Assembly: GCF_001854865.1 (NCBI RefSeq) | Contig: NZ_MDDW01000029.1 | Coordinates: forward strand, 254,692 to 265,688 | Origin: Rhizobium sp. LCM 4573 | Lineage (GTDB): Bacteria > Pseudomonadota > Alphaproteobacteria > Rhizobiales > Rhizobiaceae | Direction of reading: 5' to 3' | DNA length: 10,997 nt | Shown here: positions 2,924 to 9,450 of the stretch, piece by piece | How positions within the stretch are numbered: position 1 is the stretch's first letter | Layout of the letters: each line of letters starts with the position of its first letter | Translations under genes and position numbers: made by a program | Notes under the pieces: generated by a model | The model's input: the letters and a program-made list of their open reading frames with translations, nothing else | Told to the model about the DNA's origin: nothing | Databases searched by the model: none

Positions 2924-5900
2924 ATGAAATTCACCAAGCTGCGCCTCGTCGGGTTCAAGTCCTTCGTGGAGCCGACGGAATTCGTCATCGAGCGTGGGCT
3001 GACCGGCGTGGTCGGCCCGAACGGCTGCGGCAAGTCCAATCTTGTCGAAGCGCTGCGCTGGGTGATGGGCGAGAACTCCTACAAGAACATGCGCGCGTCC
3101 GGCATGGACGACGTGATCTTTTCCGGTTCCGGCAACCGTCCGGCACGCAACACCGCCGAAGTCGGCCTTCATCTCGACAATTCGGATCGCACCGCGCCCG
3201 CCGCCTTCAACGATAGCGACGAGATCCAGGTCTCCCGCCGTATCGAGCGGGAAGCCGGCTCCGTCTATCGCATCAACGGCAAGGAAGCGCGCGCCAAGGA
3301 CGTCCAGCTTCTTTTCGCGGATGCCTCGACCGGCGCCCGCTCGCCTTCCATGGTGGGGCAGGGGCGTATCGGCGAACTCATCCAGGCAAAGCCGCAGGCT
3401 CGTCGCCAGCTTCTGGAAGAGGCGGCGGGCATTTCCGGCCTGCATTCGCGCCGCCACGAGGCTGAGCTTCGCCTGCGCGCCGCCGAAGGCAATCTGGAGC
3501 GCCTGGAAGATGTCGTCACCCAGCTAGAAAGCCAGATCGAAAGCCTGAAGCGCCAGGCGCGTCAGGCAAACCGCTTCAAGGCGCTGTCCGCCGATATCCG
3601 CTCCCGCGAGGCCATGCTGCTGCATATCCGCTGGGTGCAGGCCAAGGAGGCCGAGGGAGAGGCCGAAAGCGCGCTCAACCAGGCGACTATCGTCGTCGCC
3701 GAAAAGGCGCAGGCGCAGATGGAGGCCGCCAAGGGCCAGGGCATCGCCAGCCTCAAGCTGCCGGAACTGCGCGAGGAGGAGGCGAAGGCGGGAGCAGCCC
3801 TCCAGCGTCTGCAGATCGCCCGGGGCCAGCTCGAGGAGGAGGTCAACCGGCTCCTGAAACGCCGCGACGAACTCACCCGCCGGCTTGCGCAGCTCGCCGA
3901 GGATATTCGGCGCGAGGAGCGCTTGGTGGCGGATAACGCCGCCTTTCTCGCCAAGCTCGACCAGGAGGAAGGCGAACTCAATGAGCTCCTGGCCGATTCC
4001 GGCGTGGAAGCAGAGGACGTGCGGGTGGCCTTCGAGACAGCCGCCGAAACCCTTGCGGCAAGCGAAAAGCTGTTTGCCGCCATCACCGCCGAGCGCGCCG
4101 AGGCCGCGGCCGCGCGCAACCAGCTTGAACGGTCGATCCGCGATCTTTCCGAGCGCCGCCAGCGGCTCGACAGGCAACTGAGCGAGGCGGAAGCGGAGCT
4201 TGCGTCGATCACCGAGCGGCTCTCCGGCCTCGATGATCCTTCCGAAAAGCGTGAGGCGGTGGAAGCGGCCGAGTTCGCGGTCGAAGAGGCCGCCGCGATC
4301 GCCGAGGAGGTGGAGGCGGCGCTTGCCGAGGCGCGTTCGAACGAAACGCTTGCCCGCGCGCCGGTGGAAGCTGCCCGTGCAAGCCTCAACGGGCTCGAAA
4401 CGGAAGCCCGCACGATCCGCAGGATGCTTGCCGCCGGCGATGCGTCGGGTGATTTCGCGCCGGTCGCGGAAATGATCCGCGTCGATCGCGGTTATGAAAC
4501 CGCACTCGGCGCGGCCCTGGGTGATGATCTCGAAAGCTCGGTCGATGTGTCCGCCCCGGCCCATTGGTCGCTCAACGGCGATGGCGCCGGCGATCCGGTC
4601 CTGCCGGAAGGCGCTGAACCGCTCATCGAGCGCGTTACGGCCCCTCCGGAGCTTGCCCGCCGTCTGCGCCAGATCGGCGTGGTTGGGCCGGCGGACGCCT
4701 CGAGGCTGATTGCGCTTTTGAAGCCCGGCCAGCGTCTGGTGACGAAAGAGGGGGCGGTTTACCGCTGGGACGGTCACGTGACGGGCTCGGAAGCACCTGG
4801 CGCGGCAGCCCTTCGGCTCGCCCAGAAGAACCGGCTTTCCGAGCTGGAAGCGGAAATCGACGAGGCGCGCATCCTGCTTTCGGAGACGGAAGACGCGCTT
4901 GCCGCCGCCGTCGGCGAAATCGCCGCGCAGGAGCGGCATCTTGCCGAGGCTCGCGACCGCGGCAGGCTTGCCGCACGCCGGCTTGCCGAAGCCCGCGAAG
5001 GGCTTGCCGCCGCCGAACGCGCCGCCGGCGACCTGATGCGCCGCCGCGATGTGGTGGCGGAAGCGGTGAGCCAGGTGAAGGCGCAGCTTGAGGAGCTCGG
5101 CATTCAGGAGGAGAATGCCCGGATCGAACTGGAAGACGCGCCGGACATTTCGAATATGGATGAGCGGCTGCGCGGCCAGCAGATGGTCGTAGCGACCGAT
5201 CGCGGTCTGCTGGCGGAAGCGCGTGCCCGTCACGAGGGGCTGAACCGCGAGATCGAGGCGCGCCGCCGCCGCCTGAGCGCGATCGCCCAGGAGCGCGCCT
5301 CCTGGCAGGCCCGGGCCGCGAGCGCCGAGGATCATGTGGCGACCCTGCGGGAACGCGAGGAGGAGGCGCGCGAGGAGATAATTGATCTCGAGGCGGCGCC
5401 GGAGGAGTTCGACGACAAGCGCCGCACCCTGATCGACGAGCTGCAGAAGGCGGAAGAGGCGCGCCGAGCGGCCGCAGACCGGTTGGCCGAGGCTGAAATC
5501 CGCCAGCGCGAGGCGGACCAGATAGCCGCAACGGCGCTCTCGGAGCTTGCCGAGGCCCGCGAAAAGCGCGGCCGGGCAGAGGAGCGCCTGGTTTCGGCAG
5601 CCGAAAAGCGCCATGAAAGCGAACAGCGCATCCGCGAGGCGCTCGGCGTCGCGCCGCATGAGATCTTGCGCCTCGCCGGTCTTCAGGCGGGGGGTACGCC
5701 TCCTGATCCGCGCGATATCGAGCGCGAAGTTGACCGGTTGAAGATGGAGCGCGAGCGGCTCGGGGCAGTCAACCTGCGCGCCGACGAGGAACAGCAGGAG
5801 CTTGCCGAAAAGCTCGCGACGCTGGTGCGTGAGCGCGACGATGTGATCGAGGCGATCCGCAAGCTGCGCGGCGCGATCCAGAGCCTCAACCGCGAGGGCC

Positions 5901-6385
5901 GTGAGCGGCTGATCGCCGCCTTCGACGTGGTCAACACGGAATTCCAGCGCCTCTTCACGCATCTTTTCGGCGGCGGCACGGCCGAGCTGCAGCTCATCGA
6001 ATCGGATGATCCGCTGGAAGCCGGGCTTGAAATTCTGGCCCGCCCTCCGGGCAAGAAGCCGCAGACCATGACGCTGCTTTCGGGCGGCGAGCAGGCGTTG
6101 ACGGCGATGGCGCTGATCTTCGCGGTCTTCCTCACCAATCCGGCGCCGATCTGCGTGCTGGACGAGGTGGATGCGCCGCTCGACGACCACAATGTCGAGC
6201 GCTACTGCAACCTGATGGACGAGATGGCCGCTTCCACCGAGACGCGGTTCGTCATCATCACCCACAATCCCATCACCATGGCGCGCATGAACCGGCTGTT
6301 CGGCGTCACCATGGCCGAGCAGGGGGTTTCGCAGCTCGTTTCCGTGGACCTGCAGACCGCCGAGCTGATGCGCGAAGCAAGCTGA
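2924..6385 (+). CDS. smc: Chromosome partition protein Smc
   Basis: The product is 1153 aa, the normal length for a bacterial SMC ATPase. As a homodimer with ScpA and ScpB it extrudes DNA loops and helps compact and segregate the chromosome. The N-terminal head has Walker A at residues 31-38 (GPNGCGKS) and the GQGRIGELI and EEAAGI motifs at about 145-170. Long Ala/Glu/Arg-rich coiled-coil arms span about 170-500 and 630-1015. They are split by a hinge at about 505-625 that begins near FAPVAEMIRV. The C-terminal head has the ABC signature LSGGEQ (1052-1057) and Walker B ICVLDE (1076-1081), followed by a D-loop DAPLDDHN and a switch His in IITHNP. All ATPase motifs are intact. The ATG at 2924 has AAGGGG six nt upstream. 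ScpA and ScpB are not in the window. It is probably co-transcribed with the dsbA-like gene. Confidence 0.99.
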   Translation: MKFTKLRLVGFKSFVEPTEFVIERGLTGVVGPNGCGKSNLVEALRWVMGENSYKNMRASGMDDVIFSGSGNRPARNTAEVGLHLDNSDRTAPAAFNDSDEIQVSRRIEREAGSVYRINGKEARAKDVQLLFADASTGARSPSMVGQGRIGELIQAKPQARRQLLEEAAGISGLHSRRHEAELRLRAAEGNLERLEDVVTQLESQIESLKRQARQANRFKALSADIRSREAMLLHIRWVQAKEAEGEAESALNQATIVVAEKAQAQMEAAKGQGIASLKLPELREEEAKAGAALQRLQIARGQLEEEVNRLLKRRDELTRRLAQLAEDIRREERLVADNAAFLAKLDQEEGELNELLADSGVEAEDVRVAFETAAETLAASEKLFAAITAERAEAAAARNQLERSIRDLSERRQRLDRQLSEAEAELASITERLSGLDDPSEKREAVEAAEFAVEEAAAIAEEVEAALAEARSNETLARAPVEAARASLNGLETEARTIRRMLAAGDASGDFAPVAEMIRVDRGYETALGAALGDDLESSVDVSAPAHWSLNGDGAGDPVLPEGAEPLIERVTAPPELARRLRQIGVVGPADASRLIALLKPGQRLVTKEGAVYRWDGHVTGSEAPGAAALRLAQKNRLSELEAEIDEARILLSETEDALAAAVGEIAAQERHLAEARDRGRLAARRLAEAREGLAAAERAAGDLMRRRDVVAEAVSQVKAQLEELGIQEENARIELEDAPDISNMDERLRGQQMVVATDRGLLAEARARHEGLNREIEARRRRLSAIAQERASWQARAASAEDHVATLREREEEAREEIIDLEAAPEEFDDKRRTLIDELQKAEEARRAAADRLAEAEIRQREADQIAATALSELAEAREKRGRAEERLVSAAEKRHESEQRIREALGVAPHEILRLAGLQAGGTPPDPRDIEREVDRLKMERERLGAVNLRADEEQQELAEKLATLVRERDDVIEAIRKLRGAIQSLNREGRERLIAAFDVVNTEFQRLFTHLFGGGTAELQLIESDDPLEAGLEILARPPGKKPQTMTLLSGGEQALTAMALIFAVFLTNPAPICVLDEVDAPLDDHNVERYCNLMDEMAASTETRFVIITHNPITMARMNRLFGVTMAEQGVSQLVSVDLQTAELMREAS

Positions 6386-6442
6386 CGGCCGGATTTCTAC
6401 CCCCGATATTTCATCCCCGAGAATTCGATTCAAATGCGTGAA

Positions 6443-6460
6443 ATCACCCATATGGGTGAT
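6443..6460. promoter_or_regulatory. Perfect 18-bp palindrome, putative operator
   Basis: ATCACCCATATGGGTGAT is identical to its own reverse complement. It lies 58 bp after the smc stop, and its right end is 12 bp before a CTATAT box (6473-6478). Its centre is about 34 bp before the start expected from that box, so it sits where a -35 element should be, and no CTTGAC-like -35 is present. The form suits a dimeric helix-turn-helix regulator, repressing or replacing -35 recognition. I cannot assign the regulator. Confidence 0.45.
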
Positions 6461-6485
6461 GTTCGAAATGGGCTATATATGCCTT

Positions 6486-6627
6486 TATCCCGTCACACTT
6501 CTTAACCCGCGTTAGGGGTTTCGACGGTCCAACAGTTTCATGCACCCCCCGTTCGGGCCTCCTGTCCTGGACGGAAAGCTTTGCGGGGCCGCTTGTGATC
6601 CGGCCCCGCAAAGCTTTGCTTTCTCTT
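6486..6627 (+). ncRNA. Candidate trans-acting small RNA with anti-Shine-Dalgarno hairpin loop
   Basis: A CTATAT -10-like box at 6473-6478 would start an RNA near 6486. Three hairpins follow. Hairpin 1: CCGTC (6490-6494) with GACGG (6523-6527), enclosing AACCC (6504-6508) with GGGTT (6516-6520). Hairpin 2: CCGTTCGGG (6549-6557) with CCTGGACGG (6566-6574), nine pairs including two G-U, exposing the loop CCUCCUGU. Hairpin 3: a perfect 17-bp terminator stem (6575-6617) and a pyrimidine tract. CCUCCU in a loop is complementary to Shine-Dalgarno sequences and is typical of several rhizobial trans-sRNA families, which block ribosome binding, often with Hfq. There is no convincing ORF. It might instead be an unusually structured smc 3' UTR, or a known alpha-r family member I cannot identify from sequence alone. 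Confidence 0.55.
6575..6627 (+). terminator. Strong intrinsic terminator-like hairpin between smc and ppdK
   Basis: The left arm AAAGCTTTGCGGGGCCG (6575-6591) and the right arm (6601-6617) pair perfectly over 17 bp around the 9-base loop CTTGTGATC. The sequence after it on the plus strand is GCTTTCTCTT, T- and C-rich but not a pure T-run. On the minus strand no T-rich stretch follows, so the direction is rightward. It would end both smc read-through and the candidate sRNA and insulate ppdK. Confidence 0.75.
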
Positions 6628-6692
6628 CCCCTCGTGCTCTTTCCTAATTCTTCCCGGCAAATCGATTGCTGCATTGCAACATAATCCTGCCG

Positions 6693-6704
6693 TGAAACGT
6701 TTCC
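6693..6704. promoter_or_regulatory. Putative LacI-family (Cra/FruR-like) operator upstream of ppdK
   Basis: TGAAACGTTTCC contains the perfect 10-bp palindrome GAAACGTTTC and matches 11 of 12 positions of the enterobacterial Cra (FruR) site TGAAACGTTTCA. It lies 58 bp before the ppdK start codon. A CATAAT -10-like box (6680-6685) just upstream would place transcription start inside the site, but it has no clear -35. Cra controls gluconeogenic genes such as ppsA in E. coli, which makes the position before ppdK suggestive. Whether this organism has a suitable LacI-family regulator is unknown. Confidence 0.35.
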
Positions 6705-6762
6705 AAACTGTCGCAAAAGCTGTAATCGTTAAGAAAAATACTGCGGCGGGTGGAGAGCAGGC

Positions 6763-9450
6763 ATGGTGAAATGGGTCTATCGCTTCGGCGGCGACGAGGC
6801 GGAAGGGCGAGTAGCCGATGTGGCGCTGCTCGGCGGCAAGGGCGCCAATCTCGCGGAGATGGCAAGCCTCGGCCTGCCGGTCCCGCCCGGTTTCACCATC
6901 GTCACGGAAGCATGCGCTTGGTATTTCGGCAATGGCTGCACCCTGCCGGATGACCTGAAGGCCCAGGTTCTGGAGGGGATTTCCCGTATAGAAGGGTTGA
7001 CCGGCCGCGCCTTCGGCGGCGGCGCGAGGCCGCTTCTCCTCTCGATACGTTCCGGTGCGCGGGCCTCCATGCCCGGCATGATGGATACGGTGCTGAACCT
7101 CGGCCTCAACGACCGCACGGTGCAGGCGCTGGGCCATGACGCGGGCGATGCACGCTTCGCCTGGGACAGCTATCGCCGCTTCATCCAGATGTATGCCGAC
7201 GTGGTCATGGGGCTGGATCACGAGATCTTCGAGGAGATACTGGAAGACGAGAAGGCGCGCTTCGGCCATGAGTTCGACACCGAACTCTCGGCGGTGGAGT
7301 GGCAGCATGTCGTCGGCCTCTACAAGCGGGTGATCGAGGAGGAGTTGGGCGAGGATTTCCCGCAGGATCCGCATGTCCAGCTCTGGAAGGCCATTGCCGC
7401 CGTCTTTGCAAGCTGGATGAACCCTCGCGCCGCCACCTACCGCATGCTCCACCGGATTCCGGAGGATTGGGGCACGGCGGTCAACGTCCAGGCCATGGTG
7501 TTCGGCAATCTGGGTTCCTCTTCCGCCACCGGCGTCGCCTTCACCCGCAACCCTTCGACCGGCGAAAACGAGCTTTACGGCGAGTTCCTGGTGAATGCTC
7601 AAGGCGAGGATGTCGTGGCCGGCATCCGCACGCCCCAGGCGATCACGGAGGAGGGGCGGCTTGCCTCCGGCTCCGACAGGCCCTCGATGGAAAAGCTGAT
7701 GCCCGAGGCCTTTGCGGAGTTCAGGGAAATCTGCGCCCGGCTGGAGCGGCATTACCGCGATATGCAGGATCTCGAATTCACCGTCGAGCGCGGCAAGCTC
7801 TGGATGCTGCAGACCCGCTCGGGCAAGCGCACGACGCGCGCGGCCATGAAGATCGCAGTCGACATGGTGGAGGAAGGGCTGATCGCCGAAGAGGAGGCGA
7901 TCTGCCGCATAGAGCCGGCTTCGCTCGACCAGTTGCTGCATCCGACCATCGATCCGCGCGTGGAACGCCACCTCGTGGGTTCCGGCCTTCCCGCATCGCC
8001 CGGGGCTGCGACCGGCGAGATCGTCTTCACGGCGGAAGAGGCGGTCCAGGCCGAGGAGGAGGGGCGCAAGGTCATCCTTGTGCGCATCGAGACGAGCCCC
8101 GAGGATATCCACGGCATGCACGCGGCCGAAGGCATTCTCACTACGCGCGGCGGCATGACCAGCCATGCGGCGGTCGTGGCGCGCGGCATGGGCATACCAT
8201 GCGTGGTCGGCGCCGGATCGATGCGCGTCGATATGCGCAACGAGGTGCTGATGGGGCTCGGCGGACTGACGCTGAGGCGTGGCGACACGGTGACCATCGA
8301 TGGCTCCTCCGGCCAGGTCTTGAAGGGTGCCGTGCCGATGATCCAGCCGGAGCTTTCGGGCGATTTTGGCCGGCTGATGACATGGGCCGACAAGACCCGC
8401 CGCATGACCGTGCGCACCAATGCCGATACGCCGCAGGACGCCCGCGCCGCCCGCTCCTTCGGGGCCGAAGGCATTGGGCTCTGCCGTACCGAACACATGT
8501 TCTTCGAGGGCGGCCGCATCCACGTGATGCGCCGCATGATTCTCGCCGAGACGGAGGAGGGGCGCCGCTCTGCACTCGCCGAACTGCTACCCATGCAGCG
8601 AGCCGATTTCACCGAGCTCTTCACGATCATGCACGGCCTGCCGGTGACGATCCGCCTTCTCGACCCGCCGCTCCACGAATTCCTGCCAAAGACGGACGAG
8701 GAGATCGCGGATGTCGCGGCGGCCATGGGCATGGAACCCGCCTTCCTGCGCCGCCGCGTCGATGCGCTGCACGAGTTCAACCCTATGCTCGGCCTGCGCG
8801 GCTGCCGCCTTGCCATTTCCTATCCCGAGATTGCCGAGATGCAGGCGCGCGCCATCTTCGAGGCCGCGGTTGCCGCAGCCGAAAAGACGGGCGAGCCGGT
8901 CGAGCTGGAGATCATGGTGCCGCTGGTCGGCCTGCGCTCCGAGCTAGACTACGTCAAGGGCGTCATCGATCGCGTGGCTGCCGCCGTGGGCGAGGAAAGC
9001 GGCAGGAAGATCGGCTATCTGGCGGGCACCATGATCGAGCTGCCGCGCGCGGCACTCCGCGCCCATGTGATCGCCGAAACCGCCGAGTTCTTCTCCTTCG
9101 GCACCAACGACCTGACCCAGACGACCTTCGGCATCTCCCGCGATGACGCGGCGGGCTTCATTCCGATTTACCAGAAGAAGGGCATCCTCGAGCACGACCC
9201 CTTCATCTCGCTGGATTTCGACGGCGTCGGCGAGCTGATCCGGCTGGCAGCGGAGCGGGGACGCTCCACCCGGACCGATCTCAAGCTCGGCATCTGCGGC
9301 GAGCATGGCGGCGATCCGGCCTCCATACGCTTCTGCGAGGAGGCCGGGCTGGACTATGTCTCCTGCTCGCCCTTCCGCGTGCCGATCGCGCGGCTTGCCG
9401 CCGCTCAAGCCGCGATCGAGCAGAGGAAGGTCAAGGCACCGACGCCTTGA
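6763..9450 (+). CDS. ppdK: Pyruvate, phosphate dikinase
   Basis: The product is 895 aa, normal for bacterial PPDK. It interconverts pyruvate + ATP + Pi with PEP + AMP + PPi in the cytosol, linking glycolysis and gluconeogenesis. The N-terminal ATP-grasp domain (about 1-345) begins with FGGDEAEGR and GGKGANLAEMASLGLPVPPGFT-type sequence (residues 25 onward). The central phosphohistidine domain has GGMTSHAAVVARG with catalytic His468; the adjacent Thr466 is where the regulatory PDRP kinase acts in other organisms. The C-terminal PEP/pyruvate barrel (about 530-890) ends with LGICGEHGGDP, whose Cys845 is the general acid/base. Both residues are shifted by 13-14 from the Clostridium symbiosum enzyme (His455, Cys831). 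The ATG at 6763 has GGTGGAG upstream. The gene is isolated from smc by a strong terminator and overlaps the convergent glycosyltransferase gene by 20 bp. Confidence 0.99.
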   Translation: MVKWVYRFGGDEAEGRVADVALLGGKGANLAEMASLGLPVPPGFTIVTEACAWYFGNGCTLPDDLKAQVLEGISRIEGLTGRAFGGGARPLLLSIRSGARASMPGMMDTVLNLGLNDRTVQALGHDAGDARFAWDSYRRFIQMYADVVMGLDHEIFEEILEDEKARFGHEFDTELSAVEWQHVVGLYKRVIEEELGEDFPQDPHVQLWKAIAAVFASWMNPRAATYRMLHRIPEDWGTAVNVQAMVFGNLGSSSATGVAFTRNPSTGENELYGEFLVNAQGEDVVAGIRTPQAITEEGRLASGSDRPSMEKLMPEAFAEFREICARLERHYRDMQDLEFTVERGKLWMLQTRSGKRTTRAAMKIAVDMVEEGLIAEEEAICRIEPASLDQLLHPTIDPRVERHLVGSGLPASPGAATGEIVFTAEEAVQAEEEGRKVILVRIETSPEDIHGMHAAEGILTTRGGMTSHAAVVARGMGIPCVVGAGSMRVDMRNEVLMGLGGLTLRRGDTVTIDGSSGQVLKGAVPMIQPELSGDFGRLMTWADKTRRMTVRTNADTPQDARAARSFGAEGIGLCRTEHMFFEGGRIHVMRRMILAETEEGRRSALAELLPMQRADFTELFTIMHGLPVTIRLLDPPLHEFLPKTDEEIADVAAAMGMEPAFLRRRVDALHEFNPMLGLRGCRLAISYPEIAEMQARAIFEAAVAAAEKTGEPVELEIMVPLVGLRSELDYVKGVIDRVAAAVGEESGRKIGYLAGTMIELPRAALRAHVIAETAEFFSFGTNDLTQTTFGISRDDAAGFIPIYQKKGILEHDPFISLDFDGVGELIRLAAERGRSTRTDLKLGICGEHGGDPASIRFCEEAGLDYVSCSPFRVPIARLAAAQAAIEQRKVKAPTP
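9431..9450. terminator. Palindromic overlap of the convergent ppdK and glycosyltransferase ends
   Basis: The 20 bp shared by both genes form the inverted repeat TCAAGGC / GCCTTGA, seven perfect pairs around the loop ACCGAC. The outermost bases are the two stop codons: TGA of ppdK at 9448-9450 and, on the other strand, TGA read from 9433 to 9431. It would make a hairpin in either transcript. Flanking T-tracts are weak (TATTCGTTAA to the right, CCTTCCTCT on the other strand), so termination strength is doubtful. Confidence 0.45.

Follow-up and report, generated by a model that had tools for sequence, protein, structure and literature searches.

A conserved small RNA family between smc and ppdK in Rhizobium and related Rhizobiaceae, with a probable trans-acting role

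The window analysed here, a 10,997-nucleotide stretch of the genome of Rhizobium sp. LCM 4573, contains smc (2924-6385; Pfam SMC_N, PF02463) and, downstream of it, the pyruvate phosphate dikinase gene ppdK (6763-9450; PPDK_N and PEP-utilizers domains, PF01326/PF00391/PF02896), both on the plus strand. The smc stop at 6385 and the ppdK start at 6763 are separated by 377 nt, and it is in this gap, again on the plus strand, that the elements of a small RNA (sRNA) gene are found. They begin with a perfect 18-bp palindrome, ATCACCCATATGGGTGAT (6443-6460), a candidate operator that overlaps the place of the -35 element. This is followed by the -10-like box CTATATATG (6473-6481) and a putative start of transcription at about 6486-6490. 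The 5' domain (6486-6543) is predicted to fold into hairpin 1, with an outer stem (6490-6494/6523-6527) and an inner stem (6499-6506/6511-6518). Next comes the motif ACCCCCC (6544-6550), a candidate C-rich seed in which positions 6544-6548 are unpaired and 6549-6550 open the stem of hairpin 2. Hairpin 2 itself (6549-6574), a candidate anti-Shine-Dalgarno seed, consists of a 9-bp stem (6549-6557/6566-6574) and the loop CCTCCTGT (6558-6565). A terminator hairpin (6575-6617) with a perfect 17-bp stem (6575-6591/6601-6617) and a 9-nt loop (6592-6600) completes the structure, and is followed by the pyrimidine tail GCTTTCTCTTCCC (6618-6630). This layout of a -10-like box, three hairpins, the hairpin 2 loop and the 17-bp terminator stem agrees base for base with that proposed in the first-pass annotation, which had also described the second and third hairpins as abutting, as they indeed do at 6574/6575.

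The segment 6486-6630 has a predicted folding energy of -61.0 kcal/mol, compared with -42.5 +/- 3.7 kcal/mol for 200 dinucleotide shuffles (z -5.05), none of which folded to so low an energy. The T tail is weak in the window species (GCTTTCTCTT) and stronger in some relatives (e.g. TTTTTT), and this weak U tail may mean that the window sRNA terminates poorly. A simple scanner applied to 6300-6800 called no consensus sigma-70 promoter and no terminator; the terminator was missed because the scanner's rule takes loops of 3-8 nt and the loop here has 9, in addition to the weakness of the T tail. A 34-codon open frame starting at ATG 6541 was considered as a possible small protein and rejected, since many relatives have no ATG at this place and the insertions and deletions in the loop do not come in threes. 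Further downstream, between the sRNA tail and ppdK, lies a second element, TTGC..GCAACATAATCCTGCC (6666-6691), which is found in 30 of 43 loci from the window's genus and may be the promoter region or an operator of ppdK itself.

A search with plain DNA gave matches in 53 of the 57 genomes of the window's genus (g1), and outside the nearest relative these were almost solely confined to about 6527-6630. Following inspection and the use of a covariance model, the conserved core (6543-6627) was recognised in 52 of the 57. The covariance model gave no match in the g1 genomes G009, G042, G045, G067 and G051, and the DNA-search match in the last of these proved to be a bare hairpin and was dropped from the count. 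One member of this genus (G014) is identical over more than 1000 bases to Rhizobium wenxiniae HU50 (now Aliirhizobium wenxiniae, NCBI). In genus g46, the core was found by covariance model R1 in 104 of 148 genomes; this genus corresponds to Rhizobium in the narrow sense, as its genome G264 is identical to that of Rhizobium croatiense (L070) over the stretch compared. A further model, R2, detected the core in 23 of 39 genomes of g34 and in the single g116 genome, and the core is also present in one genome of g113. We accept five genera as carriers, namely g1, g46, g34, g116 and g113.

Across an even sample of the family, R2 matched 19 of 394 genomes, drawn from 9 of 109 genera, compared with 15 of the same 394 for R1, indicating that R1 misses members. 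The family search with plain DNA matched 11 of 297 genomes, and an even sample of the order gave three matches in 249 genomes, all of them in g1 or g46. Single weak model matches in g26, g38, g53 and g107 (E 4e-4 to 4e-3) were rejected; these loci have no smc match and resemble isolated terminators or chance hits. Among 28 loci scanned, Neorhizobium xiangyangii (L063) and two Ensifer loci (L067 and L072) gave no match. The smc-ppdK gap of L063 is only 124 nt long, and its ppdK is 81% identical to that of the window over the stretch compared. The genomes without a match (5 of 57 in the window's genus, 44 of 148 in g46 and 16 of 39 in g34) suggest that the sRNA is not essential, although searches of more than 40 genomes used strict filters, so that these absences are not firm.

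Within the window's own genome (G000), the model search returned one full-length match, the terminator of that same locus on the other strand, and one weak match to a terminator only (E 0.36). The sRNA is therefore single-copy in its own genome. In the g113 genome (G300) there are two copies of the locus, L278 and L282, which lie on different contigs and have equal model scores; the contamination estimate for this genome is 9%. Both copies keep ACCCCCC and the stem, and in both the UCCUG loop is replaced.

Two alignments were used to examine the conservation of the core: A1, in which 53 unique cores were aligned by sequence alone, and A3, a structure-fitted alignment of 42 loci picked for diversity, which leans towards structure. 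In A1, the A and five C columns of ACCCCCC are invariant and the sixth C is missing in one core (L013); ACCCC is also preserved in g34 and g113. The loop sequence UCCUG is likewise invariant in all 53 cores. The first-pass annotation had singled out CCUCCU as an anti-Shine-Dalgarno sequence in this loop, and the motif is there in the window, but it is a variant peculiar to the window species and the conserved part of the loop is UCCUG. Thus CCUCCUG is seen in the window species only and UCUCCUG in L002, L038 and L050, while all other loops read UUUCCUG or GUUCCUG.

When the structure described above is imposed on A1, 97.3% of 1359 cells are paired. Changes on both sides of a pair were observed in 8 pairs and 84 cells, compared with means of 4.6 pairs and 14.4 cells for shuffled controls, and with at most 2 pairs and 9 cells for structures slid along the alignment. 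RNAalifold, run unaided, predicted 20 pairs, all of which lie within the 26 counted. In A3, double changes were found in 12 of these 26 pairs. Both sides have changed in four of the nine pairs of the hairpin 2 stem in A1 (six of nine in A3). One stem pair, that of columns 10 and 33, occurs in five forms: CG, UA, UG, GC and AU. Of the 17 terminator-stem pairs, 11 are invariant and 4 show double changes in A1, and the corresponding numbers for A3 are 7 and 6; the stem does vary in g34 (GCCUUGCGAGGCC). The terminator stem (6575-6617) is more invariant than termination needs, which the sRNA mechanism proposed below leaves unexplained. Sequences that stay constant next to or within a changing stem, as the unpaired ACCCC and the loop UCCUG do here, are typical of pairing sites, which suggests such a role for both motifs.

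Of the three stems that the first-pass annotation proposed to test for covariation, hairpin 2 and the foot of the terminator covary, but the sequence of hairpin 1 cannot be aligned beyond the nearest relative (G010). Its sequence is accordingly not conserved, but a structured 5' domain does recur in relatives. Among 29 loci that carry the strict palindrome defined below, the mean fold z of this domain is -2.11, with 23 of the 29 falling below -1. The 60-nt 5' domain of the window itself has a z of -0.98, a fold no better than that of most shuffles. Hairpin 1 is thus best described as a structured yet freely changing 5' end. In several g1 relatives (e.g. L004-L007, L034 and L036), the domain carries TTGGAACGC followed by a hairpin. 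The sequence GGAAC resembles the -35 motif of sigma-EcfG; it is absent from the upstream region of the window between 6380 and 6490.

The palindrome was traced in relatives with the strict pattern ACCY-N4-RGGK, searched for in the 200 nt that precede the core. Of the 52 loci in the window's genus, 30 have it (shuffled mean 0.6), as do all nine g34 loci (shuffled mean 0.1) and 6 of 34 unique g46 upstream regions (shuffled mean 0.2), one of which (L202) has the palindrome placed elsewhere and may be a chance occurrence. The strict pattern is missing from the other 22 window-genus loci, from 28 of the 34 unique g46 upstream regions and from the single g116 and g113 loci. Three g46 loci (L187, L196 and L203) carry CCCCATTTGGGTGATG, which falls outside the strict pattern. 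A palindrome upstream of the sRNA therefore recurs in three genera. In loci L015-L023 of the window's genus, about 0.7-1.05 kb lie between smc and the sRNA, and the strict palindrome is also absent.

The exact palindrome is unique in G000. Allowing up to three mismatches, there are 32 sites in this genome, compared with 3 for the reversed sequence, which is non-palindromic and hence a weak control; both of the sites with two mismatches sit inside long open frames. With one mismatch allowed, the palindrome is found in 32 of 57 window-genus genomes, in 30 of them at the sRNA. Three near-copies lie away from the locus (G045:C39, G005:C17 and G066:C5), and inspection by eye gave no sign of a second sRNA there. 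Visual inspection also revealed a TATA-like box after the palindrome in many relatives, and the spacing between palindrome and -10-like box seems to be some 8-10 bp longer in g34 and g46 than in g1, a difference of nearly one helical turn. The position of the palindrome over the -35 region in the window would suit either an activator or a repressor of the sRNA promoter. VtlR was considered as the regulator and rejected, as its box, in the form GCAT-N3-TG-N3-T given in the published account (PMC7486931), is missing from the palindrome.

It was important to establish whether the core could simply be a part of one of its neighbours. It lies on the same strand as smc, in the window 158 nt past the smc stop, and contains a strong terminator hairpin, all of which would be expected if it were only the smc terminator within a 3' UTR, possibly processed into a 3'-UTR-derived RNA. 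We consider this very unlikely. In 89 loci, taken from all accepted genera except g113, the distance from smc to the core ranges from 136 to 2500 nt (measurable in 76) and that from the core to ppdK from 102 to 1261 nt (measurable in 82), so the core stays in relatives in which smc is as much as 2500 nt away. In L070, the stretch between smc and the core contains a 425-codon open frame on the opposite strand. A terminator would also not account for a hairpin 2 that covaries and presents invariant unpaired bases, or for the palindrome and TATA-like box between smc and the core. The possibility that the hairpins act in cis, as a leader or attenuator that controls read-through into ppdK, has the orientation in its favour, with the core upstream of ppdK on the same strand, and a G-rich ppdK start region whose pairing rank falls within the top 3-11% in two of the three genomes compared. 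This too seems highly improbable to us. The distance to ppdK reaches 1168-1261 nt in L011, L016 and L014. In g34 it is about 1270 nt in two of nine loci (L273 and L274), and the flanks of the other seven, like those of L187, gave no ppdK match. In L056 and L058, smc upstream and ppdK downstream both lie within 6 kb, outside the first flanks. The element at 6666-6691 could, moreover, be ppdK's own promoter region, and in the third genome the pairing rank of ppdK does not stand out. That ranking compared the two seed segments with start regions, against a background of crude open-reading-frame calls covering 378-400 kb per genome. With the best start taken for each gene, ppdK ranked 28th of 255 in G000, 12th of 272 in G480 and 101st of 250 in G043 (16th, 9th and 64th at the start with the best Shine-Dalgarno sequence), and we do not find it convincing as a pairing target either. 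The widely varying distances to smc and ppdK indicate that the sRNA belongs to neither gene and, together with the L070 frame, are explained neither by an smc terminator nor by a ppdK leader. The earlier claim of a free-standing sRNA-type gene, beyond an smc terminator, is borne out by these distances and by the compensatory changes in hairpin 2 and the terminator.

Taking these observations together, we think it probable that the locus encodes an independently transcribed, trans-acting sRNA of the Rhizobiaceae, which has a regulated promoter and pairs with G-rich or Shine-Dalgarno sites in mRNAs. A regulator would bind the palindrome at 6443-6460 and control the promoter whose -10 box lies at 6473, giving a transcript of approximately 130-145 nt in the window species. 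From its 5' end, this RNA would comprise the variable structured domain, an exposed ACCCC, the short hairpin presenting UCCUG(U) and a Rho-independent terminator. ACCCC is complementary to GGGGU and UCCUG(U) to (A)CAGGA, both of which resemble ribosome-binding sites, and the two motifs probably pair with several mRNAs at G-rich or Shine-Dalgarno sequences. Conserved unpaired bases within and beside a changing stem, together with complements of this kind, make a trans-acting sRNA that blocks translation the most likely reading. Such pairing could sometimes open translation instead, given that GsrN is described as activating katG through its C6 seed (PMC5869019), and Hfq probably takes part. The g113 genome, which keeps ACCCCCC without the UCCUG loop, suggests that the C-rich stretch may matter more.

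The same conserved elements might instead bind a protein, making the RNA a sponge or scaffold. The short conserved unpaired motifs would fit such a role, as would the unusual invariance of the terminator stem (of its 17 pairs, 11 never vary in the 53 sequences and 7 never vary in the wider set), but each motif occurs only once per RNA and both complement ribosome-binding-site-like sequence, so we give this explanation very little weight. The trans-acting, mRNA-pairing sRNA can also be taken a step further, to a core regulatory RNA of Rhizobium-type Rhizobiaceae with two seeds (ACCCC and the UCCUG loop), whose promoter would be the sole strong genomic site of a dedicated regulator and which would serve as that regulator's private switch on many mRNAs. 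We regard this extension as speculative and rather unlikely. For the trans-acting sRNA itself, the value of the family is that it presents a concrete, testable regulator in Rhizobium sensu stricto and its relatives. The conserved seeds are the obvious sites for mutation, the signal that switches the sRNA could be traced through the near-unique palindrome, and the covariance model allows it to be annotated in many genomes together. If it does regulate many mRNAs, it would add a node to post-transcriptional control in rhizobia, and one that work in Sinorhizobium may have missed, as the two Ensifer loci examined are without it.

The first-pass annotation had looked to the Rfam models to assign this RNA to a known family. 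The whole window gave no match to Rfam 15 at the gathering score, and at E up to 5 the region 6380-6770 matched mir-3192 alone, with 17.9 bits where 80 are needed, which we regard as a chance match. In the literature searched, no sRNA is named between smc and ppdK; the supplementary tables to the tiling-array work in R. etli (PMC2881028) and to the RNA-seq work in Agrobacterium (PMC3738593) lay outside this search, and an unnamed entry in them is quite possible.

Among described sRNAs, NfeR1 and the alpha-r14 family (SmelA075, SmelA099) are rhizobial trans-sRNAs which, as here, have an anti-Shine-Dalgarno hairpin loop and a variable stem around a conserved loop (PMC3927594, PMC7143759). According to these accounts, they have three or four hairpins, each with the loop CCUCCUCCC, and several copies per genome. 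The window sRNA, in contrast, has only one such hairpin, with the loop CCUCCUGU, and exists as one full-length copy in its own genome without an Rfam match. Its loop is not that of the known rhizobial multi-hairpin families: theirs is described as CCUCCUCCC (PMC3927594), and that of the relatives here is mostly UUUCCUG(U). GsrN of Caulobacter exposes six tandem cytosines, proposed as a seed for G-rich mRNA sites (PMC5869019); the ACCCCCC of the window, nearly invariant in the core alignment and with four of its C predicted to be unpaired, is a candidate for a similar role. In the same description, GsrN and the relatives proposed for it are preceded by a sigma-EcfG promoter and, in most cases, encoded close to the general stress response genes (ecfG/phyR/nepR outside C. 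crescentus). Here, no GGAAC occurs in 6380-6490, and the neighbours identified by Pfam are smc and ppdK.

EcpR1 (SmelC291) of Sinorhizobium is also a stem-loop trans-sRNA of the Rhizobiales, and its loop motif pairs with mRNAs. It is reported to lie between divK-pleD and rpmG and to have the loops UCCGCCGCAUCU and UCCUCG (PMC4414408), unlike the present sRNA with its smc and ppdK neighbours and a core alignment from which UCCGCCGCAUCU is absent. PmaR (C10) of Agrobacterium shares an accessible C-rich region, proposed in that case to pair with mRNAs, and is described as a one-long-stem spoon with a loop, located between two hypothetical genes, with reports confined to Agrobacterium and a single Rhizobium strain (PMC6234868). 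The three hairpins and the smc and ppdK flanks set the present sRNA apart from PmaR, by the description of the latter and not by its sequence. By described features, then, this sRNA is not a member of alpha-r14/NfeR1, EcpR1, GsrN or PmaR, although by analogy it could work like alpha-r14/NfeR1 or GsrN. Like trans-encoded sRNAs in general, it is a free-standing intergenic gene with its own terminator and a conserved structure, and it probably represents a new family of this known kind, for which Rfam holds no model.
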